Source of the DNA: Pontiella desulfatans | GTDB lineage: Bacteria > Verrucomicrobiota > Kiritimatiellia > Kiritimatiellales > Pontiellaceae | Assembly: GCF_900890425.1 (NCBI RefSeq) | Contig: NZ_CAAHFG010000001.1 | Location: 3,410,001-3,474,000 of the forward strand | Reading direction: 5' to 3' | Length of the DNA stretch: 64,000 bases | The notes under the pieces: model-generated | What the model saw: only the letters and a program-made list of their open reading frames with translations | Databases searched by the model: none | What the model was told of the DNA's origin: nothing | Position numbers and translations under genes: made by a program | In this document: positions 15,007 through 37,002 of the stretch, piece after piece | How positions within the stretch are numbered: the first letter of the stretch is position 1 | Layout of the letters: each line of letters opens with the position of its first letter

Positions 15007-15027
15007 CACGATTTTGATATTTCATTT

Positions 15028-15411
15028 TCAGTCTCCGCTTGTCTCTCCTTCCTGCATTTTCTCCAGCATATCCACGACACCCGGTTCGACAAACGCCACC
15101 GGAGACGTCATCTCCACATTGAAGATACGTTTTGCGACCGCTTTGCGGATATGGGCAATGCGCCCGGTACGATAGGCATCCTCCGGCTTAATGGTGCCGC
15201 CGGTGAATTTGGACTTTTCGGGATCGCACTCAACCAGCGCGATATATCCCTTTTCCCACAGCTTCGCGTGCTCCGGGCACAAATCCCAACCCGTGACCGT
15301 CTTCCGCTCCAGCGTGTTTCGCAGGCGCTTATCCAACAGGATCGTACCCGTATCAAATGTCTGACCGCAGACCGGACAGACCTTTTGTTCCATTCCAACA
15401 TGGCTTTTCAT
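15028..15411 (-). CDS. Small zinc-binding hypothetical protein
   Basis: 127-aa protein with a CPVCGQTF motif (residues 12-19) and a second pair CPEH (about 46-49), together a probable zinc site. The rest is charged and helical, without a known domain. Its ATG overlaps the stop of the metallopeptidase/vWA gene (ATGA), with GGAAGGAG upstream, so it is co-translated with it. It probably belongs to the same MoxR/vWA machine as an adaptor or substrate; that is inference from position. Confidence 0.7.
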   Translation of the reverse strand: MKSHVGMEQKVCPVCGQTFDTGTILLDKRLRNTLERKTVTGWDLCPEHAKLWEKGYIALVECDPEKSKFTGGTIKPEDAYRTGRIAHIRKAVAKRIFNVEMTSPVAFVEPGVVDMLEKMQEGETSGD

Positions 15412-18478: not shown

Positions 18479-18490
18479 ATAAACCTACCT

Positions 18491-19816
18491 CTATCGACCA
18501 GATCCTGTTAAAAAAACTGCCAACTCTTCCATTCCTCGTCTATATACATCAACAAATGATGAAACTTCTGACGGTTCAATCGATCCTGTCGATAGAACCT
18601 TGAAAATATCATTTTTCGGCGAATCAGTTTTATACCGTTCGACGGCCATCATTATCGCCCGGTAGTCGCGTCCTTTCCCTGTTGATGGATCAGGAGGACT
18701 CAATATCACATCGGTCAAATACTCAGCATCATCAAGATCGGTCTGATGGATTGCGGCTCGTCTCACCAGACACGGAAGGCAATGCCCGCATTGAATTCCC
18801 GGTGCCCTGCCTCCCCATCGGCTCTGCTCAGGGTGGGAGCATGAGACGGTTTTTGCGGTTGTAAGACAGAGCACAGCCTCATCAGCACACTCCTTCAGCA
18901 TTTCACCTTTGGTTTTATGCCGAAACGGCAGTTCCAGCGAGATGTCAAAACCAAGTAGTGATATCACTTCCTGAATCAGTATCATAAAGTGGGGGTGGGT
19001 AGTCCTAGTACTCAGACTGCCTGTTCTGGTTTCTGTCAGAGGAACATTAAGGGATATTAACCCGTTCTCTGGAATGAACAGAGTTGAAGACCCGGAATTA
19101 AGTGATCCCAATGCACATCCCATTGCTAAAAACAACAGGGATCGGGTCCTCATTGATTGTTCATAATTACATCCACGTATCGAGGGCTGGGTAACATTCA
19201 GCCTTAAGAACCTCTTGTCAGAAATGCCCATTTGGTTCTGCAGGATGGAAGCGACTTCTGCCTGGGCTGTGGATGTCACCCCCCCACCGCCATAGTGGCC
19301 GACAAACATAGGAGTGCGTCCTTCTTTCAATAAGTTAATTGCTCCAGCCAAAGAATCCAAACCGCCTGAGAGGAGACACACATCACTGCAGTCAATTTCT
19401 TCCGATGAAAGTTCTTCCTGTAGACTATATTCGCGTTTCCTAAATTCAAACTCCCACCGATCACCACTCAGAAAGTCCAGTGCCCTTTGCAGAATGGGGG
19501 CTGCGGCATTCCATTTTCCAGGATCGGCAACGGGAACGCAGATCCTGATCTCCCGTCCCCAGCAATTATCTGAATACATATCCCTGTTAATACAACGGTC
19601 TGCACTGTAAACAGTCATTGCAAAATGGAGCAAATCCTTTGCGTCTTCGGGTAACTGGACCTGGGTCAGTTTTTCTATATCACGGACAACATGCTGTGGA
19701 ACGGAGTATGGGCTGGAACTGTTGTCATAATCACAGAATATCCTTGGAGAACCTTCGCCTATGCCCGGCACATAATTATCATTCGGCCCTACTCGAGCTA
19801 TCGTATGCCACATCAT
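18491..19816 (-). CDS. qatC: QatC, QueC-like protein of the Qat defence system
   Basis: 441-aa protein with a PP-loop ATPase motif SGGLDS (residues 150-155) and a zinc site near the C-terminal third (CSHPEQS...CGHCLPC). It is similar to 7-cyano-7-deazaguanine synthase (QueC) but longer, with an extra N-terminal domain of about 140 residues. In Qat systems it is thought to modify a partner or nucleobase; the chemistry is not shown by sequence. The ATG overlaps the qatB stop (ATGA). It is an essential member of the four-gene set in known Qat systems. Confidence 0.92.
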   Translation of the reverse strand: MMWHTIARVGPNDNYVPGIGEGSPRIFCDYDNSSSPYSVPQHVVRDIEKLTQVQLPEDAKDLLHFAMTVYSADRCINRDMYSDNCWGREIRICVPVADPGKWNAAAPILQRALDFLSGDRWEFEFRKREYSLQEELSSEEIDCSDVCLLSGGLDSLAGAINLLKEGRTPMFVGHYGGGGVTSTAQAEVASILQNQMGISDKRFLRLNVTQPSIRGCNYEQSMRTRSLLFLAMGCALGSLNSGSSTLFIPENGLISLNVPLTETRTGSLSTRTTHPHFMILIQEVISLLGFDISLELPFRHKTKGEMLKECADEAVLCLTTAKTVSCSHPEQSRWGGRAPGIQCGHCLPCLVRRAAIHQTDLDDAEYLTDVILSPPDPSTGKGRDYRAIMMAVERYKTDSPKNDIFKVLSTGSIEPSEVSSFVDVYRRGMEELAVFLTGSGR

Positions 19817-20694
19817 GCTTCACCTCCGATTATCGAATAAGCCTCTTCGTAAAGCCCTTGGATGATGGCCTTGCCTTCGGAGCCAGCCCAATCCACGGCC
19901 AGAGGATCAATCGCCTCCATCTCCAGCTTAACCGCATCATTAACATAAGCCTTCACGTTTCTTTCAAGCGAGACTGCCTGAGCTTCTGATACAGCATTTT
20001 TCTCTATCGATATCCCAAGTTCCTGTAACCATTGCCGGTATATATATCCTGCTATAAACCTTTCCAGGGCTGAGAGGACATCCCCCGAGGATAAATGATC
20101 TAAATCATCGAGTTTTTCTGTGTTTTCGTAGATCAAAGAAAGCGCGTCCTCCATAGCCTGTCTAGCCAGGCTTTCATCAAAACCGGATGATTCGGGGGCG
20201 ATTGAATCCAGCAATTCTGCATATACCGTATCTACATCAGATCCGATCAGTCTGCTTAACCCCAGATTCTGAAGTGCGGCATTAACACCGTCCGATGCTA
20301 CACTTGACAGGAACCCTGTAATCCTTTGCGCGGCAGCACGTCCGGCGGATGCATTTACTGTTGCAACTCTAGATCCACCTTTGGCTTTCACATAAGAGCG
20401 GCCGGTCTGGGGCATTCCGCCACCGCCCCCTGGACCATCAGCCCGAACCCCTCGTGTCATACTGGCCTTGGCAGCCTGCCAAAGCGGAGGCGGCTCATTA
20501 GATGTGTCTGATCCCTCTATTTCAGGATTTTGAACATCCCCTTGGGGATTTTCATTCTCCTCACCTGATTCTTCCGGAGATTCCGGTTGTGAATCAGGAC
20601 TATTTGAGGATTCACCGTCTCCCGATGGAAAAGCCCAATCTGGTAGCAGGCTTTTTTTATCCCTGTTTCCCCCATATGAAGCAGAAGTACCCAT
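19813..20694 (-). CDS. qatB: QatB, Qat defence system component
   Basis: 293-aa protein with a low-complexity Ser/Pro/Glu/Gly-rich N-terminus (about residues 15-100), a Gly-rich stretch (RADGPGGGGGMPQTGRSYV), and a helical C-terminal domain. There is no enzymatic motif. The identification rests on position between the KAP ATPase and the QueC-like gene and on general resemblance to QatB. It starts 3 bp after the qatA stop and overlaps qatC by 4 bp, so all four genes are tightly coupled. Confidence 0.85.
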   Translation of the reverse strand: MGTSASYGGNRDKKSLLPDWAFPSGDGESSNSPDSQPESPEESGEENENPQGDVQNPEIEGSDTSNEPPPLWQAAKASMTRGVRADGPGGGGGMPQTGRSYVKAKGGSRVATVNASAGRAAAQRITGFLSSVASDGVNAALQNLGLSRLIGSDVDTVYAELLDSIAPESSGFDESLARQAMEDALSLIYENTEKLDDLDHLSSGDVLSALERFIAGYIYRQWLQELGISIEKNAVSEAQAVSLERNVKAYVNDAVKLEMEAIDPLAVDWAGSEGKAIIQGLYEEAYSIIGGEA

Positions 20695-20697
20695 GAT

Positions 20698-22617
20698 CTA
20701 TCCCTTCTTTCTTTTCCTTCGAGCTATCGCGACTTTGGCAATACTGCTCTCAGAGTCTGATGCAATAACCTGTTCAATGTACCTCTCATAAAGCTCCTGC
20801 CGGCCTGCTGCTTTGCACGTCCCCTCAAGCTTTAATATGATTTGCGGAGGTAATGCTTGTGCCGGAAAACTGGGGAGAAAAGTAAGCAATTCCCCGAGTA
20901 ATTCATGGCGCACACCAGTCCACTCAACAATCATCAAAAGCGGGGATTCTTCTTTTGAGTGATCCTCCGAATGCTTAGCTTTCTCTGCTAATTCTTCAAA
21001 AATGCTGGAAGCATCAACTGGGCTCACATCCTCCCCGAGCTTCAGCGCTCCCTCGCGGACAGCTTCACTCGGGCTAAGAATCTTCAGTAGGATTTCTCGG
21101 GCGACTGAACTCAACCTTTTTGCCGTATACGAAAGGGTACTAAGCGAATCCCGTGAAAAATAAAAGTATGGCCGCAAATCAATTCCGGCCAGTTTTGGTT
21201 CCAGGGTCAGCCATTCCTTAAACCAATCCTCTGCAAACAGGACTCCAAGCTCAGTATCCATTTTGATTTTATCAGCATTGCTTTTTGGAGTAGTTCCTGC
21301 GTTTCGCTCAGCGTCCTTTTTTTCAGCTTCTTTCCCTATGCCGGGTTGAGCCAATGCGTCCTCAAGGCATACAATTTGAGGTGGCACACCATTTTGCGAT
21401 ATTTGCCAACCAGCCAGCTTCTTGAAGGTTTCTGGACGCAGGTACTCAAGAATCATCAGCTTTGCCAATACTCGTTGTTGTATCTCTACTTCCCTTGATG
21501 CGGCCATCTTCAAGCGCATCATCAGCGTATTAAGGAAACGTTTGCACTGACGTGGATTGCCGTTCATCACATCCGCCAGTATAGGACTGATGCGTTCTGC
21601 AAGCGCCAATTCTTCCTTCAAAGGTTCTGGAACCTCTTCTAGAACTTCCGAAGCAGAAGACAGTCCGAATGATCGGCCTTCCTGAATGCTCTTCGGCCCT
21701 AAAGCCCATTCACAGACCTTTTCCAGATCACTATCAGATAGATGGGGGAGCGAGAATAATAAGGCTATATAGTTTTCTGTGTCGGTTTTGCTCATTGAAG
21801 GAACGCGGATCATGTACTGGATGAGTTTTTCCAGATAATCCCGTCCGACATCAGTCCGATCACCAGGAAGCTCAGGGAACCGGCTTCGAACAGCAAACCT
21901 TACAAGGCGTTCGTCAGCTCCTATGATAAAAGCACTGCCCGGGACAAAGAGAAACAGTTTGATAGCTTCTAGCGTTTCAATGATGGTATCGGGCAGGCAC
22001 CGATCCAGATCATCGATTACGACGACCAGCTTCTTGATTTTTGCCTCATTCAGAAAGGACTCAAAATTCTCCCGAAACTCTCTTATGCCTTTCCGCAAGG
22101 TGTGTTTTTTCTCATCCTCCAAAAGCGCAGAAACATCCTCTGGCTTCAAGTCCTCTATTTTTTCTCCAGCTTTTTTTGCTAGAGCAACGGCGTCGATACC
22201 GGCAACAGCAGACAGGCCAACCGGGCCTCCGGCAATAGTGGCAGCTCCATATTTGACGGCGGAACCAACGGCCCGAAACCAGTTCACCTTCCGGATAAGA
22301 TTCACCGCCAATACTTTTGCCCTGTTCCCCAAGGTCTTTTGCGATGAAATTTCGTCGATGATTGTTTCCATTAAGGCCGTCTTTGCATCATCGTATCCTT
22401 CAAACAGCCATCCATTGAATGATAGGAGAATGACATCACCCTGCGACTTGAGATCACGTTCTATCATTTGAATAACGCTGCTTTTACCGGAACCCCAGTC
22501 ACCGAAGATTCCTATCGTTGCAGGAAGAAGGTTATCGGAATTCACTATATCAACAGCTGAACACACCAGGTGCTGAACTCCCAAAAGATCTCTTTCTGAT
22601 TCATGATCAGGCCACAT
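20698..22617 (-). CDS. qatA: QatA, KAP-family P-loop ATPase of the Qat defence system
   Basis: 639-aa KAP NTPase. Walker A GDWGSGKSS is near residues 38-46 and Walker B LVVVIDDLDRC near 225. Between them lies the typical KAP insertion with a hydrophobic Gly/Ala-rich segment (VGSAVKYGAATIAGGPVGLSA, partial) that may touch membranes. It is the first gene of the qat operon. The start at 22617 has GGAGGAG 5 nt upstream; 22650 is in frame but lacks a ribosome site. In Qat the ATPase is assumed to sense infection or power the complex. Confidence 0.92.
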   Translation of the reverse strand: MWPDHESERDLLGVQHLVCSAVDIVNSDNLLPATIGIFGDWGSGKSSVIQMIERDLKSQGDVILLSFNGWLFEGYDDAKTALMETIIDEISSQKTLGNRAKVLAVNLIRKVNWFRAVGSAVKYGAATIAGGPVGLSAVAGIDAVALAKKAGEKIEDLKPEDVSALLEDEKKHTLRKGIREFRENFESFLNEAKIKKLVVVIDDLDRCLPDTIIETLEAIKLFLFVPGSAFIIGADERLVRFAVRSRFPELPGDRTDVGRDYLEKLIQYMIRVPSMSKTDTENYIALLFSLPHLSDSDLEKVCEWALGPKSIQEGRSFGLSSASEVLEEVPEPLKEELALAERISPILADVMNGNPRQCKRFLNTLMMRLKMAASREVEIQQRVLAKLMILEYLRPETFKKLAGWQISQNGVPPQIVCLEDALAQPGIGKEAEKKDAERNAGTTPKSNADKIKMDTELGVLFAEDWFKEWLTLEPKLAGIDLRPYFYFSRDSLSTLSYTAKRLSSVAREILLKILSPSEAVREGALKLGEDVSPVDASSIFEELAEKAKHSEDHSKEESPLLMIVEWTGVRHELLGELLTFLPSFPAQALPPQIILKLEGTCKAAGRQELYERYIEQVIASDSESSIAKVAIARRKRKKG

Positions 22618-23097
22618 ATTTCTCCTCCGAGCCAATTGAAACAAACACACTTAATCCGCATTCATAAAACATCTAAGTCACACACCAACAAAAAATAACA
22701 CCAACTAAACCGGTTGCATTTCCAATCAACAAAATCGTTCATATCACATCCCCCGATCAGTAGTACCTACCGCACCAACCTCCTCTCCTTTTCAGCAACA
22801 TCCGCAAACTTGATCGCCATTCCACGCACCCCGAAATCAACAGGTTTAATAAACGTGAAAACAATATCCGTTTTTCACCCCTCCATCCAGCGATTGCTTA
22901 GGAAAATCGCCGATTTGATGCGTTTGTGGTGGATTCCCCCACAACCACCAGGCACCCCCACCGAAAGGCTTAGTATTTTATACTAGTCTCTGTGCGGTTC
23001 ACCGAAACGGACTTCGGCGCAGCCACTGGAACAAGGACATGGTTTATAGCCTGATCCAATACAGCACGTCCGCACCCAACGGTAGTCTTTGATAAAA
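22618..23097. other. Non-coding region upstream of qat
   Basis: About 480 bases without a gene. It must contain the qat promoter (minus strand), but no clear box was found. AGTAT-TTT-ATACT (22972-22984) and a G/T-C/A-rich inverted repeat near 22926-22950 are the only visible structures. Confidence 0.5.
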
Positions 23098-23943: not shown

Positions 23944-24291
23944 CTATTCGCCCTTTTCTTTCGGTTTATCCAGAAAGTTGACGGTTTCGGCAGTGACGAG
24001 CAGACGGGAGCGCTTTTCGCCTTCCTCGTTTTTCCACTCGTCCATTTTGAGTCGGCCTTCAACGAGTACGGCGCGACCTTTGCTGAGGTATTTGTCGCAC
24101 GTTTCGGCGAGTCCCGACCAGGTTTCGATGGCAACGAACGCGACGCGCTCCTGCTCCGTGCCGTCGTTATCCTTATAGTGCTCGTTTACCGCCAGCCGGA
24201 AATCGGCGACCTTGGTGCCAGACTTGAGGGTCTTGAGTTCTACGTCGGTGGCAACGTTGCCGACCAGGATTACTTTGTTGAATGACTTCAT
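23944..24291 (-). CDS. ssb: Single-stranded DNA-binding protein
   Basis: 115-aa OB-fold SSB of the bacterial type: NKVILVGNVATDVELKTLKS, then VADFRLAVNE, then TWSGLAETCDKYLSKGRAV. It lacks the usual long acidic C-terminal tail ending in DIPF; it ends LDKPKEKGE, so it may not recruit host repair factors in the usual way. The start at 24291 has GGAGGAC upstream. It probably serves replication or transfer of the element. A TGGGAC motif lies 42-47 nt upstream. Confidence 0.93.
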   Translation of the reverse strand: MKSFNKVILVGNVATDVELKTLKSGTKVADFRLAVNEHYKDNDGTEQERVAFVAIETWSGLAETCDKYLSKGRAVLVEGRLKMDEWKNEEGEKRSRLLVTAETVNFLDKPKEKGE

Positions 24292-24330
24292 ATTGTCCTC
24301 CATGGGTTGATGGTTTCAATTAACGCCCCG

Positions 24331-25374: not shown

Positions 25375-27372
25375 TTAGAGTTCGTTGGGATCGGAGAGAA
25401 ACCGTAGGTTGTCGGCGGAAATATTCCGCGACTTGAGATCGCGCAGGGTTTTGTGTTTTACGGATTCGGTAGTGCTGAAGCTGATGATTTCGTCAAATTC
25501 CAGTTCCAGCAGTTTCTGAATGTTGTCGGCGCCCCGCGATCCGGTCTCGATTTCAACGGCAATGCGTTTCCCGTCTTTTTCGGCATGCAGGTCTATGCAT
25601 TGGTTGTTGCCGATGGGCTTTTCCAGTTCAACCGTCCAACCGTCGCGGTCAAACTTTCGATGGATCTCGTTTTTCCAATAGTTGTGGATGAGGCCACCCT
25701 CTTTCCGTTTGGCCACCTCTACGCTGTTCCGCTTCATGGCTTCCCGCATGGCGGGTGTAAAATCCAACAGCACCACTTTTCCGGTTCGGGTTGGAATATC
25801 CACGGGCTGGATGACACCTTTTTGAATGAGCCCCTGTTTGGCGTGGTTTCCCCTTCTCCGGCTGATGCCCAAACGTGAATAGCGTTTGACGACTCCGTCG
25901 AATGGGTTTCGGTATATATCCTTCATGAGCTTTTGCTCCGTTTCAGTAAGAGAGGTTCCAGGTTCTTTCTTCCCTATTCTATGAATATGGGGAACATCCT
26001 TGGTTTGGTTGGAATCCGCTTTATCTACAGATTCCTGCATGGAATCGTTGGAACCGGTTCCATATTTTTCAATGAGGTGCGCGTCGGTGACGGAGCCCTT
26101 GTCGAGATCGACCTTGGGGATCTGAATCTCGAAGGGAAAAATGAAACGCGACTGGAGCTTTACGACGGCGTGGCCGATGGGAAGGAGTCCGAGCACCTCG
26201 CGGTGCTCCCGCGGTATCCGCATCATTTCGGCGAGGGAGTTGATGTCCTTGCTGTGTTTCATGTTGAGCGCAATGGTGCAGTAGGTATTACCGAGCGCCG
26301 GAACGGAAATCTGGCTGGGATGCTGATCGACCAGTACGATGGACTCGCCCATCTCCCTGATTTCACGAAGCAGGAGATCGATGACGGTTTCCTTGCCGGT
26401 GTTGGTGAGGATGTTGTGCGCCTCTTCGACGATGACGCAGTGCTTGAAGGTTTCCCTATCGGGTTCAAGCATCCGGCAGTGGTGGATCCAGACCATCAGG
26501 GTTTCGATAAGAAATATTTTTTCGTTGTGCGCCAGCGAATTGAGTTCGAGGCAGACGTTTTTATCGAGCAGTTCCTGTATACCGGATTGCGACTCGGTGT
26601 TGATGACGTCGGACACCTGTCCGAAGCAGAGACTCTGAACGGCACGCATGGTGGAATCGAGCCACATGGCCTTCCGGCCTTTGACCGGCATCTTTTCCAG
26701 AAACGCCAGCACATCCTTCAGGGTGGGAAACCGCTCGGGTTCGTTCGTGTAGCATCCATATTTTTTATAAACGGCATCGATGGCCTCCATAAGAATAAAC
26801 ATAACCCCCTCTCCCAAAAAGTAGGCGTGGGAAATGATCTCGATCAGCTTTTTGAGCCAGACCTTCAGATCGGTTCCCGGCGGTGGAATCAGCGGGTTGA
26901 AATACAAAGGATGAACCGGTCGGCCGACGGTGTAGATTTCCAGTGGAACATCGTGTGCCAGCAGGTCGCGGTAATTCCGTTTCCAGTCGAAAATCAGGAA
27001 GGGCTTTTTGTTGCGAACCAGCTCTTTGATGAGCAGGGCTACCGTATTGGTTTTCCCCGCCCCGCTCCGGCCAAAAATCGCCATGTGCTGGATGAATTCA
27101 TCTTCGCAGATTCCGAAGGGATACAAGGCCTGGTCATGTGCCAAAATCCGACCCAGTTCATACTGCCCACGGGCATTTTCTTCTGGGGGAATATGGAGCC
27201 CGTTTTCAACCAGTGGATTGACGCCGAATTTACGCTCGAGCTGAAGCTCCACCAAGGCCTCGATGTCGCGCTTGCCGGCGCTGTCGCTAAGCTGGTGCTG
27301 CCGCCAGATTTTCAGGGCTTTTGATTTGCCAATATAGTCTGACAGTTTCTTTAGTGATTCCTCAAAGGTCAT
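25375..27372 (-). CDS. HerA-like ATPase fused to a PD-(D/E)XK nuclease domain (module 1)
   Basis: 665-aa DNA-translocase ATPase of the HerA/FtsK superfamily. Walker A GRSGAGKT (101-108), a DWKRNYRDL segment shortly after, Walker B HCVIVEEAHNIL (about 315-326), and a glutamine in VDQHPSQ as sensor. A winged-helix-like linker (about 490-560) is followed by a restriction-endonuclease-like domain with IDLHAEKDGKRIAVEIETG (Asp and Glu-x-Glu, about 595-620). Archaeal HerA works with NurA in DNA end processing; a fused nuclease would make one self-contained pump-nuclease. It overlaps the upstream gene by 11 bp. A paralogue of the same design is at 34775. Confidence 0.88.
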   Translation of the reverse strand: MTFEESLKKLSDYIGKSKALKIWRQHQLSDSAGKRDIEALVELQLERKFGVNPLVENGLHIPPEENARGQYELGRILAHDQALYPFGICEDEFIQHMAIFGRSGAGKTNTVALLIKELVRNKKPFLIFDWKRNYRDLLAHDVPLEIYTVGRPVHPLYFNPLIPPPGTDLKVWLKKLIEIISHAYFLGEGVMFILMEAIDAVYKKYGCYTNEPERFPTLKDVLAFLEKMPVKGRKAMWLDSTMRAVQSLCFGQVSDVINTESQSGIQELLDKNVCLELNSLAHNEKIFLIETLMVWIHHCRMLEPDRETFKHCVIVEEAHNILTNTGKETVIDLLLREIREMGESIVLVDQHPSQISVPALGNTYCTIALNMKHSKDINSLAEMMRIPREHREVLGLLPIGHAVVKLQSRFIFPFEIQIPKVDLDKGSVTDAHLIEKYGTGSNDSMQESVDKADSNQTKDVPHIHRIGKKEPGTSLTETEQKLMKDIYRNPFDGVVKRYSRLGISRRRGNHAKQGLIQKGVIQPVDIPTRTGKVVLLDFTPAMREAMKRNSVEVAKRKEGGLIHNYWKNEIHRKFDRDGWTVELEKPIGNNQCIDLHAEKDGKRIAVEIETGSRGADNIQKLLELEFDEIISFSTTESVKHKTLRDLKSRNISADNLRFLSDPNEL

Positions 27373-27919
27373 CGTTCAAGACCCTCTTTTTCCTACGCTC
27401 GTCCGCATAGCCTGACCATGAGTCGAATATGTCGCCCAGAAGCCGGTTGGTATCCCGCCAGCAGGCCACCTCTTCGGCATGTTTTTCCTTGGCCAGCGAA
27501 TGAACCTGCTTTTCCAGCTCGGACTCGAACCGGCTGTGGATTCCATTATAGTTCGGCCAGTTTCGGAGTTCCGAAAGTATGCCGTGAACCCGCAGCTGTT
27601 CGTATTCCACATTCTTGAGAATGCCGTATGAGATCGCATGCCGCGCCCGCAGTTGCTTGACCAAAACATCAATGTGGTCGCCGTGCAAATGCAGGCGGTC
27701 GGACGTGAAGTCCAGCGGCTCGATTTCGTAGGCGTTCTTGCTGTTAAAAATCCGTTCGGTCAGCTCATCGGGATTCTTGAAAGGACTTTTGTCAGGTTTG
27801 ATTTCCTGGATGATCTCGAAGGCCGGCTGACCGGTTTCAACATGATAGTTGTATGCGTCTTTCTGGCGCTCCGCCTCGGCGTCATACAACGGTATTCCGT
27901 ATTTATCTTCAAATGCCAT
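27362..27919 (-). CDS. Hypothetical partner of the HerA-like ATPase
   Basis: 185-aa charged, helical protein (MAFEDKYGIPLYDAEAERQ...). It contains a segment rich in Glu/Arg/His (HSRFESELEKQVHSLAKEKH) that may form a coiled coil. No known family. Its stop overlaps the HerA-like start by 11 bp, so both are translated together, suggesting a physical partner. The start at 27919 has CGGAGAG upstream. A CCGAAATC-TTTATAAA promoter-like element is centred 39.5 nt upstream. Confidence 0.7.
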   Translation of the reverse strand: MAFEDKYGIPLYDAEAERQKDAYNYHVETGQPAFEIIQEIKPDKSPFKNPDELTERIFNSKNAYEIEPLDFTSDRLHLHGDHIDVLVKQLRARHAISYGILKNVEYEQLRVHGILSELRNWPNYNGIHSRFESELEKQVHSLAKEKHAEEVACWRDTNRLLGDIFDSWSGYADERRKKRVLNDDL

Positions 27920-27954
27920 TTTACCACTCTCCGGTGAGAGTAAATGGATTGGCA

Positions 27955-27970
27955 TTTATAAAGATTTCGG
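27955..27970 (-). promoter_or_regulatory. CGAAA + TTTATAAA promoter of the HerA module-1 operon
   Basis: Minus strand CCGAAATC-TTTATAAA (box 27955-27962), centred 39.5 nt upstream of the ATG at 27919. No convincing bacterial -35 is present. Confidence 0.5.
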
Positions 27971-28529: not shown

Positions 28530-28871
28530 CTAGCCCAGGGAACCGAAGCCGCCCCGAAGCTTTTCGGGGAGTGATTCGACCCATTCACCGAACCCCACGG
28601 ATTGTGTTGTCCGGTTTGCATACCTGCACCGGTACAATCCCTGTGGAGCCGGTTCGACCGTCATCAACCGCGCGATTTCCGCGGTCTGCGCTGTGCCTGC
28701 CATTTCGAGCAGGCCAGCCCTAACCTCAACTCTTTCTTCATCATCGAGTACGGGATGGATGCCATAGTATCCGAGCACGGACTCTTCGTCTTCCGCGTCG
28801 AATACATCGAACGGAAATTCACTCTGGATTCCGATGTATTCAAGGATCCGATTCACTTTCGTTTTGTTCAT
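28530..28871 (-). CDS. Hypothetical acidic protein
   Basis: 113-aa protein without a recognised domain (MNKTKVNRILEYIGIQSEFP...). It is acidic in the middle (FDAEDEESV, LDDEERVEV), soluble, with a C-terminal part FGEWVESLPEKLRGGFG. GAGAGG lies 8 nt before the ATG. Upstream is a leader hairpin with the GCAAAGAC loop shared by other genes of the element, and downstream is the mini-hairpin array. Function unknown. Confidence 0.65.
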   Translation of the reverse strand: MNKTKVNRILEYIGIQSEFPFDVFDAEDEESVLGYYGIHPVLDDEERVEVRAGLLEMAGTAQTAEIARLMTVEPAPQGLYRCRYANRTTQSVGFGEWVESLPEKLRGGFGSLG

Positions 28872-29372: not shown

Positions 29373-29389
29373 CACCTCATAAAGAGGTG
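29373..29389 (-). promoter_or_regulatory. SD-sequestering hairpin, second copy
   Basis: Minus strand CACCTC-TTTAT-GAGGTG covers the stop of the 84-aa gene and the Shine-Dalgarno of the 56-aa gene. It is the same arms as at 25332-25350. Confidence 0.5.
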
Positions 29390-29631
29390 TCCTTATCGGA
29401 CATCACTACGGACTCGAAGGCTTTTCCAAGCAGCAACTGCGCTTTCGGAAGATCGTTCAACCTCAGGGTTTGTGTCCTCTGCCAGTCGCCCTTCTCATCC
29501 TTGTAGCTTCTTTCAAGCTTTACGCTGTAGCTCACGCTCTCTTCGCCGCTTTCATCCTTTCTGGTATTTTCCCAGACCGCAACGCTGATCGCGCCTGCAC
29601 TAAACTTTTCAGATGGTTTATTTCCATTCAT
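29377..29631 (-). CDS. Small conserved-looking protein, 84 aa
   Basis: 84-aa protein (MNGNKPSEKFSAGAISVAV, then W..N..., YSVKLERSYKDEKGDWQRT, then LNDLPKAQLLLGKAFESVV). It looks like a compact beta-alpha fold; I recall similar small proteins in archaeal and bacterial mobile elements but cannot name the family. The start at 29631 follows GAGG and a GCAAAGAC-loop hairpin. It is divergent from the orc1/cdc6 gene with the putative origin between them, so it may be part of replication control; that is inference. Confidence 0.65.
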   Translation of the reverse strand: MNGNKPSEKFSAGAISVAVWENTRKDESGEESVSYSVKLERSYKDEKGDWQRTQTLRLNDLPKAQLLLGKAFESVVMSDKDTSL

Positions 29632-29648
29632 TTTATCTACCTCGCAAA

Positions 29649-29664
29649 CTGCGTCTTTGCGCAG
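29649..29664 (-). promoter_or_regulatory. Leader hairpin, GCAAAGAC type, copy 2
   Basis: Minus strand CTGCG-CAAAGA-CGCAG, ending 18 nt upstream of the ATG at 29631. Confidence 0.55.
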
Positions 29665-29699
29665 CTTGTCGTCGGACAGGACTGACAAGCTTCGCTTCG

Positions 29700-29851
29700 C
29701 AGTGCGAGTGGATTTCCACTGGAGATCAACTTTCAGGTGCAGCTCCCGTTTTCGATCAGCAGATTTATAAGCGTAACTTTTCTATAGTAGTAGTTATTAC
29801 TAGAATAGGTATATGTATATATATACCTCCACCGGAAAATTACTCGCACCG
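29700..29851. other. Putative replication origin with inverted ORB-like repeats
   Basis: Two copies of CTCCA-N2-GGAAA-N3-ACTCGCAC-N-G face outward: one on the minus strand (29724 to 29700), one on the plus strand (29827 to 29851). The 102 bases between them are AT-rich (densest 29761-29826) and contain the dyads TAGTA-N5-TACTA and AGGTATAT-N6-ATATACCT (29807-29828). The core CTCCA-N2-GGAAA resembles archaeal origin recognition boxes as I remember them, and the initiator gene starts 86 bp away. There are no DnaA boxes. The region 29632-29936 has no gene. Confidence 0.75.
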
Positions 29852-29936: not shown

Positions 29937-31190
29937 ATGGAACTCTCTATACAATCCCAAATCAAACAACAGATCGAACAGGCCTGCCGCGACAGCATTA
30001 TTCTGAATCCGGAATACCTGGATGACGAACAGCTGTCCCGTGAAGGCCAGTTCCACGTACTTACGGATATCTTCAACGTCAACATCCGTAGCCGGGAGAT
30101 CAACGAGATCACACGGCATTTCGCGCCGATCTTCCAGAACGGCCATCCCATTCATTTTTCGGTGCTGGGCAAGACCGGCACAGGCAAGACCATCACTTTG
30201 CTTTATCTGCTTCAGGAATTCGCGGTGCTCTGCAAGGAGCGCGGCATACCATTCGCAAAGTACCATTTGGATCTGTGCTGCCCTGCACCGTGCTTTCGCG
30301 CCCTGAACAACCTGGGCTGCCTGATGCAGGCCAGCCGCTATTACAAACGGGGTATCAGTCTGGACGACCTCATGCATTCCATAGAGGCGAAGCTCGCCGA
30401 ACGGAAGGGATACATCGTGATCTTCATCGACGAGGCCGACAACATCCGAACCGATCCCGACTCGTTCTATAAATTCCTGATCAAGCGTCTTCCGCAGAAG
30501 ACGGAGGCGAAGATCATCCTGCTCTTTTCCTCAAACCGCCTGGGCTGGGCGGACAACCTTGATCCCCGGATCAAGAGCTGCCTGAAAATGCGCGAGCTTA
30601 TTTTCGACCCCTACAATGCCGGCGACCTGTTCAACATTCTAAACATACGGGTTCAAAAGGCACTGCGTGAAGGCAGTGTCGAAGAAGGCGTGCTTCAAAA
30701 AATATCGGCCTGTTCATCGCGTAACCACGGTGATGCACGAAAGGCCGTCAACCTGCTCAGTCGATCCGCGCAGCTTGCGGAAAAGGCGGGAACGTCCGTA
30801 ACGATGGAGCTGGTGGATAGTGCCAACGATGAAATTGAAAAGGACAAATACCTGGCAATGATCCGAACCGCGCCAAAGCAACTGCAGGCGGCGCTCTATG
30901 CGGCGATCACGGGCAAGGCCAAAGGAAAGGCCTTGCATACCGGCGACGCCTATATCGTATATGACCGGTTCTGCCACGAAACGGGCATCGCCCCGCTGAC
31001 CCAGCGGGCGTTCACCGACCTTTTGAGCGAACTGGACATGTACGGCTTTATTCGGGCGCGAACCGTGTCGCGCGGTCGTTATGGCCGGAGCAAGGAGATC
31101 TATGTTTCGCTGGAACCGCATATCCTGCACGCCATGAAACGAACCATTCTCCAGAATTTTGATCTATACAACGAGGTGACCTATGCATGA
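29937..31190 (+). CDS. Orc1/Cdc6-type (archaeal) replication initiator
   Basis: 417-aa AAA+ protein matching archaeal Orc1/Cdc6 along its whole length. Walker A GKTGTGKT (78-85), Walker B YIVIFIDEAD (159-168), sensor-1 SSN (198-200) followed by LDPRIKSCL, sensor-2 HGDARKA (264-270), then an alpha-helical lid. A winged helix (about 320-400) carries the typical LTQRAFTDLLSELDMYGFI and SRGRYGRSKEI strings. Such proteins bind origin boxes and load the replicative helicase in archaea; bacteria normally use DnaA or Rep proteins. AAAGGTGAT precedes the ATG. The putative origin is immediately upstream. The gene overlaps the next one by 4 bp. Confidence 0.9.
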   Translation: MELSIQSQIKQQIEQACRDSIILNPEYLDDEQLSREGQFHVLTDIFNVNIRSREINEITRHFAPIFQNGHPIHFSVLGKTGTGKTITLLYLLQEFAVLCKERGIPFAKYHLDLCCPAPCFRALNNLGCLMQASRYYKRGISLDDLMHSIEAKLAERKGYIVIFIDEADNIRTDPDSFYKFLIKRLPQKTEAKIILLFSSNRLGWADNLDPRIKSCLKMRELIFDPYNAGDLFNILNIRVQKALREGSVEEGVLQKISACSSRNHGDARKAVNLLSRSAQLAEKAGTSVTMELVDSANDEIEKDKYLAMIRTAPKQLQAALYAAITGKAKGKALHTGDAYIVYDRFCHETGIAPLTQRAFTDLLSELDMYGFIRARTVSRGRYGRSKEIYVSLEPHILHAMKRTILQNFDLYNEVTYA

Positions 31191-32329
31191 CAACCGATCC
31201 ATTCAATGGACTATTAGACCCGTTCGCCTGGTGGGATATCGGGCGAAGCTATGATAAATACAACGCGTTTTTCGACGTGATCATCTTCAGCGCAATCTTC
31301 ATTGCGCTGGCGCAGGCCATCCTTGGCCGTAGATTCCCTGGCCGCCCCGGTCGCGCGCTTTCCGCAGCACTCGGCATCTTCATGGGCGTCGGCCTGACCC
31401 TGCTCGAACAGCAGTTTGGCTGGAACCTGCGAATGGCGGGTGGTGTTGCCGCCGTCATCGTAATGATCATTTTTGCCATGCTGATGATGCCGTTCCTGCT
31501 CCAGTTCAACCTGAACAAGCGAACCGCAGGCACCCTCGTGTTCCTGATCCTGTATTTTATGCTGAAGGCGCTTAGCCCGGCATCCATGCAGTTTATCGAC
31601 CGGCACTTTCCATTCCTGCACCTGATCGCAGCCATTGCCGTGATCTATGGATTCTGGCTCATTATACGGCGCGTCCTGCCCAACGATGCCAGTGCGGTCT
31701 TCAATACCTCGGATGCCGGCATGGTGGCTCGGCTTGACCAACCGCGCGAAAAAAGCGAACTTCATTTGCTTAAGAAGACGAACCGCAAGGCGGTTCCCGA
31801 AGCAAAGAAGAACGCAAAGCAGATTGAGCACACCTTGCAGGCACTGAAAAATGAAACCCAAAAACCCAACCCAAGTTTCAAGCAGATAGCGCAAGCTACT
31901 GCCACCATCGCGCACCGGGCGGATTCAGCCGTGGAAAAAATCGATAAGCTACGGATTCTGGATCGGCGCCTGAGAAACTTTGACTGGCACGAACTCCAGC
32001 AGATGCGGAACTATTGCCGCGAGCTGGGCGAAGCGGATCGTGAAAAGCTAAAGCAACAGCTATTGCTGGAACGGAAGAAAATCCTCGAAGAACATGCGAT
32101 CGAACAAACCATTTCATCCTGCGAGAATCTTTATTCCAATCTTCGCAGCAAACTCGATGGCATTGGGCGGGCGGCGCTCGCCAAGAACAAGGCTGAAACC
32201 ATTGCGGACATCAACTCCGCGCTTCAGCTGGACAGCCAGTTGCGCGGCATGCTCGATAAATTGCAAAAAGCGGAAAAGCTCCTATTCAAACTTACCCGGA
32301 TAAAATTAAACGATGAGAAGAAAATCTAG
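31187..32329 (+). CDS. Multi-pass membrane protein with long coiled coil, coupled to orc1/cdc6
   Basis: 380-aa protein. The N-terminal half has four to five transmembrane helices (about 28-46, 57-74, 84-107, 114-131, 145-163). The C-terminal half is a charged helical or coiled-coil region (about 195-380, with KQIEHTLQALKNETQ and REKLKQQLLLERKKILEEH). The ATG overlaps the initiator's stop (ATGA), so it is translated with it. It could anchor the replicon or the DNA pump at the membrane, or be a partition-type factor; no family is recognised. It converges with 32326 and the two stop codons share CTAG. Confidence 0.75.
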   Translation: MTTDPFNGLLDPFAWWDIGRSYDKYNAFFDVIIFSAIFIALAQAILGRRFPGRPGRALSAALGIFMGVGLTLLEQQFGWNLRMAGGVAAVIVMIIFAMLMMPFLLQFNLNKRTAGTLVFLILYFMLKALSPASMQFIDRHFPFLHLIAAIAVIYGFWLIIRRVLPNDASAVFNTSDAGMVARLDQPREKSELHLLKKTNRKAVPEAKKNAKQIEHTLQALKNETQKPNPSFKQIAQATATIAHRADSAVEKIDKLRILDRRLRNFDWHELQQMRNYCRELGEADREKLKQQLLLERKKILEEHAIEQTISSCENLYSNLRSKLDGIGRAALAKNKAETIADINSALQLDSQLRGMLDKLQKAEKLLFKLTRIKLNDEKKI

Positions 32330-32653: not shown

Positions 32654-33376
32654 CTATGCGGCCACAGGGCGTGGCGGGTGTTCAGCCGCCACGATTGCCA
32701 GCTCCTGGCCATTGCCACCAACCCGCTCGAACAGCTTAAAGCATCGCGAACACACCGCTTCGACTTCGATATTTCTATCCGCCCAAACCTCCTGTCCGCA
32801 TTCGCATCTATAGAGGATTTTTCGTAGCGGTTTTCTGATCGGTTCATCACTTTCACCCTCCACCATCGGGTGGTGCGGTGAAAACCCAAGCGCTTCTAGC
32901 TTCCTTCGCAAATCGGGCGACACGGCCAACGTTGCGCCGTTGCCCACCTGCGCATGAATACCGACGGATGCCGCCATCCCCACAAACTGGCTGTTGTGAT
33001 ACCGCTGACGATGGCCGACGTGCCCAAACAGGTGCTGGTACAGATGGATCATTTCATGCAACAGCGTCACGGCGACATCGGATTCGCTCCGGCCAAAATG
33101 CCGCGAGTTCAAATGGATTCGATGCTTCGCCCCAATCTCATCCCGGCCGATCCGGTAATACCCATACCGCACGATCAGATCCGCCCCTATCGAAATCACC
33201 GCCTTCGGCAGTTTGTCCGCAAAGAAGATACCGTTGAGTTGGTCATACAACACATTCATCCGATGCGCGATCCGGCTGTACGCCCAGCCACTCGCTTTTG
33301 TTTCGTGGTCACGGATGGCATCGATCACCTGCTCGGTCGCGTCATGCCCTCCATTCCGTTCACATGCTTCAGTCAT
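32654..33376 (-). CDS. SprT-like zinc metallopeptidase
   Basis: 240-aa SprT/Spartan-like protein. The peptidase core has LLHEMIHLYQH (His107-Glu108-His111) and a later GHRQRYHNSQF supplying the third ligand. The C-terminal zinc ribbon has CECG and CSRC pairs (about 203-222). Relatives cleave DNA-protein crosslinks; on mobile elements they may clear proteins from DNA. The start at 33376 (MTEACERNGG) follows GGTGAGA and a GCAAAGAC-type hairpin, and overlaps the upstream stop. An in-frame start at 33454 is less likely. Confidence 0.85.
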   Translation of the reverse strand: MTEACERNGGHDATEQVIDAIRDHETKASGWAYSRIAHRMNVLYDQLNGIFFADKLPKAVISIGADLIVRYGYYRIGRDEIGAKHRIHLNSRHFGRSESDVAVTLLHEMIHLYQHLFGHVGHRQRYHNSQFVGMAASVGIHAQVGNGATLAVSPDLRRKLEALGFSPHHPMVEGESDEPIRKPLRKILYRCECGQEVWADRNIEVEAVCSRCFKLFERVGGNGQELAIVAAEHPPRPVAA

Positions 33377-33905
33377 TCTTCTCACCCTGGCAGCCCGTCT
33401 TTTGCGGACTTGCTCCTGCCCGGTCGGGGCAAGGCGCCGGAAACGCCTGCTCATTCTGCTTCAACCGCCCTTCCAGCCATTTGATCAAGATCCGGATGCT
33501 TTCGTTGCAGACCGCGATGATATGCCGGTCAAACTTACGGGAGCCCCTGCCACACATCGCAGGCAGCCTGCAAAAATGCACGGGTGGATAGTAGCCCAAA
33601 TTGATAAAGCTCTCGCAGATTTCCCAGGTCATGTCCATGCCGCCGCCAGTTAGTGCCAAATAGTATTCGTCGTCCATCTGGATGATGGTTGTATTCACCA
33701 GCTTTGCCCTGAAATCATCCGGCACCTCGAAACTTTCGCCCAGCGGGTACATATAGTTCATCATCGGCATATACCGGTCTTCGTCTTCCTCACTTGTCAC
33801 CAGTGGAACTTCCCAATGCTCCATGTAGCCTTCGGAAAAATCAAAATCCTGCGGCTTGGAATCGATCAATTCGCAGCTTAGTCCCTCATACGTACATTCT
33901 TTCAT
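33369..33905 (-). CDS. Conserved hypothetical protein of mobile elements
   Basis: 178-aa acidic protein (MKECTYEGLSCELIDSKPQDF...). The string DEYYLALTGGGMDMTWEICE (about 79-98) resembles a hypothetical family carried by phages and plasmids; its function is not known to me. The last 40 residues are rich in Pro/Cys/Gln and overlap the SprT start by 8 bp. GAGGTGA precedes the ATG at 33905, behind another leader hairpin. Confidence 0.7.
   Translation of the reverse strand: MKECTYEGLSCELIDSKPQDFDFSEGYMEHWEVPLVTSEEDEDRYMPMMNYMYPLGESFEVPDDFRAKLVNTTIIQMDDEYYLALTGGGMDMTWEICESFINLGYYPPVHFCRLPAMCGRGSRKFDRHIIAVCNESIRILIKWLEGRLKQNEQAFPAPCPDRAGASPQKTGCQGEKND
33393..33409 (-). promoter_or_regulatory. Leader hairpin, GCAAAGAC type, copy 3
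   Basis: Minus strand GTCCG-CAAAAGA-CGGGC (one G-U pair), ending 16 nt upstream of the SprT ATG, inside the 3' end of the 33369 gene. Confidence 0.5.
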
Positions 33906-34039: not shown

Positions 34040-34198
34040 ATGAATACTCCCTATGGAAACAACAGGCCGCTGGGCGGCAACAATACGCTGAACATCATGC
34101 GCAACAACCAGCAGCAGCAGATGGAGCAAATGCGGCGCATGCAGGAAGAACAGCGGCGCCGGATGGTGCGTGACCCTCATCGTCCGCACATGGGCTAA
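34040..34198 (+). CDS. Small Asn/Gln/Met/Arg-rich protein, 52 aa
   Basis: Reads MNTPYGNNRPLGGNNTLNIM, then a run of Gln/Met/Arg (NNQQQQMEQMRRMQEEQRRR), and ends RPHMG before TAA. AAAGGAA lies about 7 nt before the ATG. It is low-complexity, probably a single helix with a basic tail, and is the first gene of a plus-strand operon leading to HerA module 2 (10 bp to the next start). Too short for homology judgement. Confidence 0.6.
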   Translation: MNTPYGNNRPLGGNNTLNIMRNNQQQQMEQMRRMQEEQRRRMVRDPHRPHMG

Positions 34199-34208
34199 GG
34201 AGCATTCC

Positions 34209-34778
34209 ATGGGGCTTGCAGATATTTTGCGGTGGGTGGCCAACCGGCTGGATCCAAACAGGAACCAGCCCCCGCCCGCAATGCCCCGGCCAGCGCCGGG
34301 CAACCAGCACCAGGCGGGAGGTGGAGCATTCCACGTCCCGCCCGGCATGCACACGGTCTTGACCGAGGATCAGCAGGCCACGGTCGATGGCGTCCAGAAC
34401 CTGGAATACCACCGCCGCACGCTGCATATGAAGGACGGCAACAACGGAAAATACCGCGCCTTCCAGAAAAACTCACAAATCCTGGGCGGGTGCGGCTGTG
34501 TAAGCAGCAGTCCGATGGATGTCGCGTTCCTCTCGCAGGTCACCGGCCTGCCGGTCTGCAAGGATTGCGAAAAGCAGATCAACCGCATGCGCGCAATGAC
34601 GCGCAACGAGGAAAGCACCTGCAACCACAAAGTAGCCATACACGAACTCCGGCGTGTACCGGGTCACGGCTACATGTGCCCCTACTGCCTGGTTGAGTTC
34701 CAGAAGGAGGCGCGCAAGCGGCGGCTCCTCGGCATAGTCACTTTCTTTATACGACCATTAATGAAACTACCATCATGA
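34209..34778 (+). CDS. Zinc-binding hypothetical protein of the HerA-2 operon
   Basis: 189-aa protein: an N-terminal helix (MGLADILRWVANRLDPN), a Pro/Ala-rich linker, then several Cys/His pairs (GGCGCVSS, CKDCEKQ, CNHK, CPYCLVEF) that look like two zinc sites, and a hydrophobic C-terminal stretch (LLGIVTFFIRPLM) that may touch the membrane. AGGAG lies 6 nt before the ATG. The stop overlaps the HerA-like start (ATGA). It is probably an accessory factor of the ATPase. Confidence 0.72.
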   Translation: MGLADILRWVANRLDPNRNQPPPAMPRPAPGNQHQAGGGAFHVPPGMHTVLTEDQQATVDGVQNLEYHRRTLHMKDGNNGKYRAFQKNSQILGGCGCVSSSPMDVAFLSQVTGLPVCKDCEKQINRMRAMTRNEESTCNHKVAIHELRRVPGHGYMCPYCLVEFQKEARKRRLLGIVTFFIRPLMKLPS

Positions 34779-36805
34779 AAACTGAACAACCGATCCCGAA
34801 ATTGGATTCTCTGTTCCAGCAACTCCGCAAAGCGGGGCTGGATCGGATTCCGCATACCCACGATCTGATGGAATGGGCACAGATCGACCCCGACGATTCC
34901 TCCATTATCCGGCTATTGCAGGAAGCGCTGGAGGAGGAAGGAACAATCCTGCAACTCAATCCCGATCCGTTTCGCCCGACCATGCCCCACAACCAGCAGG
35001 AAGTTTCCGGCGACCTTCACCTGGGGTATCTGCCCCAAAACGGGTTCCCGTACGGAATCTCCATACAACAACTGATCTACCACCTACTCGTGCTAGGCCG
35101 CACGGGCGGAGGCAAAACGACATTGATCCGACATCTGCTGCATCAGTTGGTGCAAAATATTCCCGACATCAAACTCCTAATACTGGAACGCAAACAGGAA
35201 TATACCGACCTACTGAATCTATCCCCCGAACCGTTCCATGTGCTCGATGTAAAACGCCTGCGATTCAATGTTCTCAAACCGCCTCCGGGCGTCCCCCTGC
35301 ATATGTGGCTTTCCGTTTTCACACAGATGTTGACCAACTACATGGACATCCGCATCGCCAGCAGTGGGTTTCTACTGGAACTCGCACTTGATCTTATCGC
35401 CGATTCAGAAGGCTCCTTTCCCTCACTAAGAGATCTCCATAACCATATCAAAAAACAAAAATACAAACCTGCATCCACCATGGCACGGCATCAAGAAACG
35501 GTACTCATCCGTCTTTCAGCCCTGCTCAATATGCTGCCCGGCGTGTTCGACAGCGGAAACGGGCTGGATATCCGCGACATCCTAGCAAACCACACCCTGT
35601 TCCTGCTTCATGACATCCCGCACCTGGCCATGCAAAATTTCATGTTCAGCCTGATCATGGCGCAGGCTTTCTTCTACCGAACCATGGTGGAGGGGCATCA
35701 GCCCTCCCTGCGCAACTTGATGGTACTCGACGAGGCATCAGCACTGTTTCGCCGTAGTGATGAAATCAAGGAAAACGATTCCTACCTCTCCTACATGGTC
35801 TCTCAGGCACGCGGGTACGGTATAGGTTTGATTGCCGCTGGCCAGAGTTCAACCGACCTTAGCCACACCCTACTTGCGAATACCGGCACCAAAATCGTCG
35901 TCGGTGGCCTTGGTCGCTCAGAAGACGCCGACCTTTTCTTGCGCCAGCGACCCATTACATTGGAACAACGGCACCACGTGATGAGCCACCCGGATGTCGG
36001 ACGAGCCTTCAGTGCTGATGGTCGCTACCCCTACCTGCTTGAGTGTGGAATTAATCCGCCACCAAATAATGCTGCGCTTGATGATGCTGCATTGGAGCAG
36101 CACATTAGAAAAACAGTAGTGGATTTGAGAATCGCACCGCTACTGCCGCCACCTTCGCCCAAGCCAAACGCGAAGCCTACGGAGAAGAAGGAGATTGCCG
36201 ATGACTTGCTCCGTATTCTACTGGACATCCAATATACCCCGTTCCAACTACTCCGTGATCGCGCCAATAAATTGAAAATGAAACCCGTCGCCCTCCATGA
36301 CCAAATCAAAAAGCTTATCCAACAGGGCATGATGAAAGACCACCCGGTTCATATCAAACGCGGCTCGCCGCGCGATCTCTATGAAGTAACTGCAAAGGGT
36401 GCTGGATTGACTAAAGTACCGATCACTAAAATGAAAGGGCGCGGCGGTTACTTGCATAAATTCTATCAAATGAAGATCGCGGAATTCTGGAAAGCCAAAG
36501 GATGGAAAGTAGAGATAGAAGGCTTATGCGACAGCAAGAATGCAGACCTCGTCATAACCCACCGTTCCGATGGCACGGCCGTCGCCATCGAAATCGAACT
36601 CAACTTTGAAGCCAACCCCGACCATGTGATCCACAATATTTTAAAAGACCTTGAATCTGACCGTGTAGAAAAGGTGATCACCCTTGTACCGAAAAAACCT
36701 ATCCTAAAAAAACTAGAGAAGCTGATTAGAGACACGGAAGAATTGAGCGGCAAGATCGGCAGAATCGAACTGGCCTGCACCTACAACCATTGGGAGGACA
36801 AATAA
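34775..36805 (+). CDS. HerA-like ATPase fused to a PD-(D/E)XK nuclease domain (module 2)
   Basis: 676-aa paralogue of the protein at 25375. Walker A GRTGGGKT (108-115), an ERKQEYTDLL segment matching DWKRNYRDLL of module 1, LKPPPGVPLHMWL matching LIPPPGTDLKVWL, and Walker B NLMVLDEASALF (about 310-320). Glutamines sit in VSQARGYGIGLIAAGQSS. A winged-helix linker is followed by a nuclease-like domain with ADLVITHRSDGTAVAIEIEL (Asp, Glu-x-Glu, about 590-610). Start and stop both overlap the neighbours, so it lies in a five-gene operon with a zinc protein and two small membrane proteins. DNA pumping during transfer, replication or defence is likely; which of these is unknown. Confidence 0.88.
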   Translation: MKTEQPIPKLDSLFQQLRKAGLDRIPHTHDLMEWAQIDPDDSSIIRLLQEALEEEGTILQLNPDPFRPTMPHNQQEVSGDLHLGYLPQNGFPYGISIQQLIYHLLVLGRTGGGKTTLIRHLLHQLVQNIPDIKLLILERKQEYTDLLNLSPEPFHVLDVKRLRFNVLKPPPGVPLHMWLSVFTQMLTNYMDIRIASSGFLLELALDLIADSEGSFPSLRDLHNHIKKQKYKPASTMARHQETVLIRLSALLNMLPGVFDSGNGLDIRDILANHTLFLLHDIPHLAMQNFMFSLIMAQAFFYRTMVEGHQPSLRNLMVLDEASALFRRSDEIKENDSYLSYMVSQARGYGIGLIAAGQSSTDLSHTLLANTGTKIVVGGLGRSEDADLFLRQRPITLEQRHHVMSHPDVGRAFSADGRYPYLLECGINPPPNNAALDDAALEQHIRKTVVDLRIAPLLPPPSPKPNAKPTEKKEIADDLLRILLDIQYTPFQLLRDRANKLKMKPVALHDQIKKLIQQGMMKDHPVHIKRGSPRDLYEVTAKGAGLTKVPITKMKGRGGYLHKFYQMKIAEFWKAKGWKVEIEGLCDSKNADLVITHRSDGTAVAIEIELNFEANPDHVIHNILKDLESDRVEKVITLVPKKPILKKLEKLIRDTEELSGKIGRIELACTYNHWEDK

Positions 36806-37002
36806 TGGACTACTACCGTATATTCAAGATCGGACTCCTTGTGTTCGGCATACTGCTGCTACGCCAGTGGATGCCGGAGCTGTTCCAAAACGTCAGTGGC
36901 ATACTGCCATCATCCCGCCACAATCCGCAATACAACCTTTTCGCATGGATCATGATCTTCATCGCAACCGCCGGACTGATCCGGCTGCTGAACCGATTCT
37001 AG
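36805..37002 (+). CDS. Small two-pass membrane protein
   Basis: 65-aa protein with two hydrophobic helices (FKIGLLVFGILLLRQW and NLFAWIMIFIATAGLIRLL). The ATG shares a base with the HerA-like stop (TAATG), with GGGAGG upstream, so the two are translated together. It has no known family. It is the likely membrane anchor or pore partner of module 2. Confidence 0.68.
   Translation: MDYYRIFKIGLLVFGILLLRQWMPELFQNVSGILPSSRHNPQYNLFAWIMIFIATAGLIRLLNRF

Follow-up and report, generated by a model that had tools for sequence, protein, structure and literature searches.

Replication initiators are thought to mark a boundary between the domains of life, with DnaA or Rep proteins serving bacteria, and Orc1/Cdc6 together with MCM serving archaea and eukaryotes. 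The stretch of DNA analyzed here (hereafter the window; 64,000 nucleotides, C1:3410001-3474000 of the 8.66-Mb, six-contig genome of Pontiella desulfatans, G000) carries an open reading frame that a preliminary description of the sequence had read as an archaeal-type Orc1/Cdc6 initiator inside a bacterial integrated element. This raises the question of whether the protein truly belongs to that family and, if so, what it would replicate in a bacterium.

Identity of the Orc1/Cdc6-family protein

The open reading frame is complete, with an ATG at 29937 and a stop codon ending at 31190 on the (+) strand:

29937..31190, (+): Orc1/Cdc6-family initiator, 417 aa (HMMs, motifs, structure matches, dN/dS)

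Every Orc1/Cdc6 landmark cited in the preliminary description was confirmed, namely GKTGTGKT, FIDEAD, SSN followed by LDPRIKS, HGDARKA, LTQRAFTDLLSELDM and SRGRYGRSKEI, and the AAA+ module has Walker A and B, sensor motifs and a Cdc6-type lid. The model searches suggested there gave scores above the cut-offs for TIGR02928 (238.7 bits, E 8e-71; curated cut-off 181.3), the Pfam Cdc6_C winged helix PF09079 (76.7 bits; cut-off 25.1) and Pfam Cdc6_lid (57.5 bits; cut-off 27). The top match among solved structures was Saccharolobus solfataricus Orc1-1 (2qby_A, E 1.8e-48, residues 51-397), followed by Aeropyrum pernix 2v1u_A, and the wing SRGRYGRSKEI is nearly the same as in crenarchaeal initiators (NRGRYGKTKEI, SRGRYGKTREV). 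A transposon helper ATPase of the TniB/ExeA type, an AAA+ protein with no winged helix, had been named as one way in which the assignment could be wrong; the Cdc6-type winged helix and the TIGR02928 score rule this out. Judged by its sequence, the gene at 29937-31190 is a genuine Orc1/Cdc6 (COG1474).

Membership of an archaeal and eukaryotic family is also what archaeal contamination or a chimeric assembly would produce, but the chance of this is negligible: orc1 is present at four loci over two contigs of the P. desulfatans genome (the other three 62-78% identical to the window's), the flanks are bacterial, and a fifth gene, 98% identical and syntenic, is found in the independent assembly JAROAZ010000001.1 of Pontiellaceae bacterium B12227. 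These further copies exclude a chimeric contig, about which the preliminary description had warned. We refer to the window locus as W, to those at C1:1583k, C2:528k and C1:3173k as A, B and C, and to the B12227 locus as D. Among 27 other genomes of the genus searched, one had orc1. The orc1 genes are under strong purifying selection, with dN/dS of 0.03-0.15 (0.034 for W-D, 0.043 for A-B, 0.105 for W-A and 0.146 for W-C); for two neighboring genes described below, dN/dS was 0.05-0.08 (HerA1) and 0.12-0.20 (the 380-aa gene), and though some ratios are rough (dS >1), all are well below 1.

tRNA-targeted elements carrying orc1

The following features lie at one end of W:

7087..7131, (−): attachment site with the 3' half of tRNA-Gly(CCC), sharing 45 identical bp with the intact gene (C1:3765598-3765642)
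7210..8859, (+): tyrosine recombinase (integrase), 53% identical to A's (Phage_integrase E 5e-17; PHROG integrase E 1e-42)
8973..9281, (−): helix-turn-helix protein, excisionase-like by position (HTH_17 E 1e-8)

A, B and C each end in a homologue of the window recombinase, giving a recombinase at one end in four of five elements; one end of D extends past its contig. In the four P. desulfatans elements a 3' tRNA fragment adjoins each recombinase, and the far side of the element carries that tRNA gene intact on the same strand. The tRNA is tRNA-Gly(CCC) for W (45 bp identical, 348.6 kb between copies), tRNA-Gly(TCC) for A (63 bp identical, 88.7 kb), tRNA-Met for B (107 kb) and tRNA-Tyr for C (460 kb). 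W, A, B and C are tRNA-targeted integrated elements, each with a recombinase and direct repeats formed by a partial and an intact tRNA.

G+C content drops at both ends of W and C, with 0.53 inside versus 0.57-0.60 outside, and A and B show little or no such step. In a relative (G001), only ~14 kb separates homologues of the left- and right-flank genes, with a 100% identical tRNA-Gly(CCC) between them, versus ~371 kb here, indicating that the island is absent there; this empty-site comparison covers the W island only. The recombinase, the 45-bp tRNA-Gly repeat, the compositional step and the empty site together bear out the earlier placement of the gene inside an integrated element. Of the flanking genes that had been called bacterial, those for the Qat system and the SSB do belong to the element, but the sulfatase at 5186-7207 lies beyond its end, in the host flank. 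D adjoins an intact tRNA-Tyr (B12227, G016), and its Orc1 is 98% identical to that of W at tRNA-Gly, so an almost identical orc1 module is found at different tRNA genes in the two species.

The element spans (89-460 kb) are upper limits for single elements, because C is composite and W possibly is. C (C1:2718857-3178488), the largest island, contains a second tyrosine recombinase (2832031-2833425, 54% identical to B's) and, immediately past it, a 3' remnant of tRNA-Tyr; we rejected C as one 460-kb element, and the arrangement suggests tandem accretion at one tRNA gene. An intact tRNA-Phe is located inside the W island at about C1:3757388, ~8 kb from the far attachment site, and W may be composite too. 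The span of B is supported by an accessory module, MoxR/VWA, near its intact-tRNA end. As an upper limit, the four att-to-att intervals come to about 1.0 Mb, or 11.6% of the genome. A third tRNA-Met 3' fragment at C2:496957-496994, 14.7 kb outside B, suggests that another small island or a remnant lies in tandem there. Among the best 150 scored sulfatases (of 555 candidates), 31 lie in the four islands, ~1.8x expectation.

Besides orc1, the window part of W includes these genes:

13446..16697, (−): accessory module of MoxR-like AAA ATPase, 127-aa protein and DUF2201/VWA protein, shared with B, C and D
17741..22650, (−): accessory module, Qat anti-phage system (TatD, QueC-like, QatB, QatA), 99% identical in D
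23944..24303, (−): bacterial SSB (Pfam SSB E 2e-32)
25375..27372, (−): HerA1, HerA/VirB4-class ATPase with C-terminal extension (DUF87; A-D conservation 77-93%)
27362..27955, (−): 197-aa protein overlapping HerA1, conserved in five elements
28530..28871, (−): 113-aa conserved element protein
29377..29688, (−): 103-aa protein, conserved in five elements
31187..32329, (+): 380-aa membrane protein overlapping orc1 (ATGA), conserved in five elements
32654..33454, (−): SprT-like zinc protein with conserved counterparts in A, B and D
34170..34778, (+): 202-aa cysteine-rich protein, upstream of HerA2
34775..36805, (+): HerA2, second HerA/VirB4-class ATPase (weak CedD and CedB model matches)
36805..37002, (+): small hydrophobic protein after HerA2; A and B homologues have two predicted membrane helices
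37015..37212, (+): second small protein, two predicted membrane helices

All five elements have HerA1 and its 197-aa partner, orc1 and the 380-aa gene that overlaps it, and small conserved genes in between; most also have SprT, HerA2 with the cysteine-rich protein, and the pair of small membrane proteins. Hydrophobic helices lie at 26-163 of the 380-aa protein, followed by a C-terminal half that is long and helical, and A's copy of the 103-aa protein has a distant relative near the Orc1 of G179. Two (+) strand open reading frame calls (29199-29588 and 29613-29888) are probably not genes, as they overlap the better conserved 29377-29688 on the (−) strand. HerA1 is 93% identical between W and C while Orc1 is only 62% identical, which argues that element modules recombine. 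The accessory genes differ, with Qat and MoxR/VWA in W and AbiE and Fic genes in A. The module of MoxR-like ATPase and DUF2201/VWA protein is present in W (13446-16697), B (C2:602392-605986), C (C1:3156604-3159834) and D, where it is 74-94% identical and lies at varying distance from orc1. For the Qat operon (17741-22650), the 99% identity between W and D compared with ~87% in the surrounding element points to recent exchange or replacement of a defence cassette. An IS66-type insertion sequence at 39116-40492 is 99.6% identical to a copy in C2 near 498-500 kb.

The predicted structure of HerA1 places it in the HerA/VirB4 fold class, with matches to DndH-C (Z 33), VirB4 (Z 29.7) and HerA (Z 28). 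Its best NCBIfam model was CedD, at 87 bits versus a cut-off of 600, and HerA2 reached 35 bits with the CedB model versus a cut-off of 700. Crenarchaeal Ced DNA exchange uses CedA, CedA1, CedA2, CedB and CedD (PMC11868833, PMC9905601). The Pontiella elements likewise have two HerA-class ATPases with small two-helix and multi-helix membrane proteins, and besides the CedD match of HerA1, the order of HerA2 then small membrane proteins recalls CedB with CedA1/CedA2; however, the scores are far below the cut-offs, and these genes are element-borne whereas Ced is a host system. We also considered the 380-aa protein as CedA/VirB6 and rejected this, having found no sequence or fold support, although at a model pLDDT of 68 the missing fold match means little. 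No relaxase was found among the element genes scanned, which were part of the gene set. Speculatively, both HerA ATPases and the two small membrane proteins, perhaps joined by the 380-aa protein, could form a minimal DNA-transfer machine similar to Ced or T4SS parts of archaea, and the elements may be conjugative.

Origin-like sequences upstream of orc1

The space between the 103-aa gene and orc1 in W contains three features that resemble parts of an archaeal origin:

29702..29724, (−): ORB-like box 1, CTCCAGTGGAAATCCACTCGCAC, archaeal ORB dyad
29760..29826, no strand: AT-rich stretch, candidate DNA unwinding element (76% AT vs 47% locally)
29827..29849, (+): ORB-like box 2, CTCCACCGGAAAATTACTCGCAC, orientation opposite to box 1

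Both W boxes carry the archaeal ORB dyad CTCCAGTGGAAA, and all five elements have two boxes of the form YTCCASYGGAARTYYACTCNCRCYGG in this interval. Relative to orc1, the minus-strand box comes first and the plus-strand box second in all five, at −214/−109 from the Orc1 start in W and D, −300/−111 in A, −809/−638 in B and −533/−399 in C. As the YTCCASYGGAARTYYACTCNCRCYGG consensus was derived from the Pontiella element boxes themselves, we also searched with the published archaeal ORB core TCCA[CG]T[TG]GAAA (Ori-Finder 2, PMC4164010). Ten sites were found in 1.222 Mb, and five of the ten lie within 1 kb upstream of the four orc1 genes, where 0.017 were expected; these matches are partly non-independent, two of them sharing one palindrome in C. 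The published core has no match in A, whose boxes fit it only loosely, as does the second box of B.

The AT-rich stretch between the boxes, for which AT content was computed in W, is 67 bp with 76% A+T. Opposed ORBs flanking an AT-rich unwinding element are the layout of archaeal origins (PMC6742236). The boxes lack the G-string tail and end in ACTCNCRC instead. Not all archaea have the G-string tail in their ORBs. In C, some boxes overlap the orc1 start. GC skew around orc1 shows no sign change and thus gives no hint of lasting origin activity in the integrated state, in which the islands are probably replicated passively. A further box-like match at ~26.95 kb of the window was discarded since it lies inside the HerA1 coding sequence, where it encodes PLEIYTVGR and reflects coding conservation. 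AT-rich strings (TTTAAATA, CGAAAGGTATAAATACC, CGAAAGGTTTATTAACC) precede orc1 at about 29883-29900 in W and also occur in L095, L131, L132 and L133; they are rare upstream of other island genes. By their letters they may resemble archaeal BRE/TATA promoters, possibly by chance.

Distribution of Orc1 and its likely role

Using HerA1 as a probe, we recovered further loci in the same phylum, and in G179, G378 and G402 (two loci) a divergent Orc1 adjoins the HerA1 homologue. These Orc1s are 23-25% identical to the window's, scored 122-137 bits with TIGR02928 in the three scanned (below the cut-off), and form a second clade of four with full support, whose hosts belong to other families of the same class. 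This clade has no RGRYG wing and no obvious ORB dyad upstream of Orc1, and the two absences go together, a consistent though tentative correlation. A profile of both clades found Orc1 in six of 388 phylum genomes (five genera, one class), a patchy presence that fits mobile elements. Shorter HerA1 relatives, ~30% identical and with no neighboring Orc1, occur at L137 (G016:C206) and L136 (G370:C47), and are perhaps parts of related elements with another replication module. We found no matches in 50,697 phage records, and all plasmid matches listed were archaeal; peptide-pattern scans of IMG/VR found none, a weak negative as the patterns were few.

The Pontiella Orc1s form one long-stemmed clade with at most 31.6% identity to the archaeal proteins compared. 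In a tree whose archaeal sequences came from plasmids and solved structures only, an analysis that the preliminary description had proposed, the Pontiella and second clades were distinct and both long-stemmed, falling among the archaeal proteins with no resolved position. On this archaeal sampling we rejected recent transfer from a named archaeal group, as the Pontiella clade stands on a long stem with no resolved archaeal neighbor. A second clade beside the same ATPase in other families, together with the long stem, argues against one recent import. That description had left the choice between a cross-domain replicon and a bacterial lineage of Orc-driven plasmids; an Orc-driven bacterial lineage fits better, though the word plasmid does not carry over: no free form was seen, and we infer replication from the ORB-like boxes, the identity of the gene and the selection on it.

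With a probability of roughly 0.7, we read the locus as the replication module of an integrative element that targets tRNA genes in bacteria and whose excised form would be replicated by an archaeal-type initiator. Recombination between the two tRNA copies, carried out by the recombinase, would release a circle, and Orc1 would bind the boxes via its winged helix and AAA+ module, distort or open the AT-rich stretch, and then recruit the host replisome; integrated elements would be copied passively. No recognizable MCM was found in the P. desulfatans genome, where the best PF00493 match was 30 bits (E 9e-7). This family model also matches in 14 of 14 bacterial control genomes, so such weak matches are most likely other AAA+ proteins, and helicase loading is left unexplained. 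The helicase would be bacterial DnaB or some element helicase, with conserved element proteins as adaptor candidates. We give even odds to the fuller proposal that Orc1 loads bacterial DnaB, directly or via an element protein, which would make this a complete archaeal-style replicon in large integrative, possibly conjugative, bacterial elements.

The missing MCM would also suit a protein that is not an initiator, and Orc1 could instead be a site-specific DNA-binding AAA+ regulator or a part of transfer or partition acting with the membrane protein and HerA ATPases. The overlap of orc1 with the membrane-protein gene in five elements, the Orc1-HerA1 neighborhood in distant relatives and the absence of a GC-skew switch point the same way, and boxes overlapping the orc1 start in C would suit autoregulation. 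We nevertheless consider this reading unlikely, as opposed paired boxes around an AT-rich stretch have the look of an archaeal origin, beyond what a repressor needs, and the wing is nearly that of chromosomal initiators. It is less likely still that these are old immobile islands in which orc1 is a leftover or has been domesticated as an accessory origin gene of the chromosome: the islands are large, C is composite with its second integrase and tRNA-Tyr remnant, most relatives are without orc1, and no free form was seen, but the orc1 genes are intact and constrained, the recombinases are intact, the attachment repeats of W (45 bp) and A (63 bp) are still perfect, and 98% identical Orc1s sit at different tRNA genes in two species.

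Read as a replication module, the locus resembles several known systems. It shares its protein family and domains with archaeal Orc1/Cdc6-ORB systems (S. solfataricus Orc1-1/oriC1, Thermococcales, haloarchaeal plasmids), and with their origins the TCCAGTGGAAA dyad and, next to the initiator gene, opposed boxes on either side of an AT-rich stretch; it differs in its bacterial host with no recognizable MCM, in the box tail, and in the long-stemmed, distant clade of its protein. Tyrosine recombinase, 3' tRNA repeat and accessory defence genes are shared with bacterial ICEs and tRNA genomic islands. In typical ICEs, replication depends on a relaxase, a Rep protein or some other bacterial function rather than on Orc1. 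Thaumarchaeal integrative-conjugative and cryptic integrated elements, some with Cdc6/Orc1 and VirB4/HerA-class ATPases and with no relaxase detected (PMC6563490), are alike in chromosomal integration and in these genes, whereas the Pontiella elements have a bacterial host, bacterial SSB and defence modules, and a larger span. Our literature search, of limited coverage, found no description of Orc1/Cdc6 elements in bacteria. Archaeal Orc1 plasmids and elements are already known; what appears to be new is that bacteria carry an archaeal-type initiator and origin boxes on the otherwise ordinary chassis of an integrative element.

A bacterial lineage that keeps Orc1 and ORB-type boxes without a recognizable MCM makes it testable whether an Orc-type start can work with a bacterial helicase, and what the minimal helicase partner for Orc-family initiation in bacteria is. 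The Pontiella Orc1 and its boxes also offer a mesophilic, bacterial Orc1-origin pair for biochemistry. Finally, the islands, with their defence systems, make up as much as about 1 Mb (11.6%) of a sulfatase-rich genome, and so bear on genome growth.
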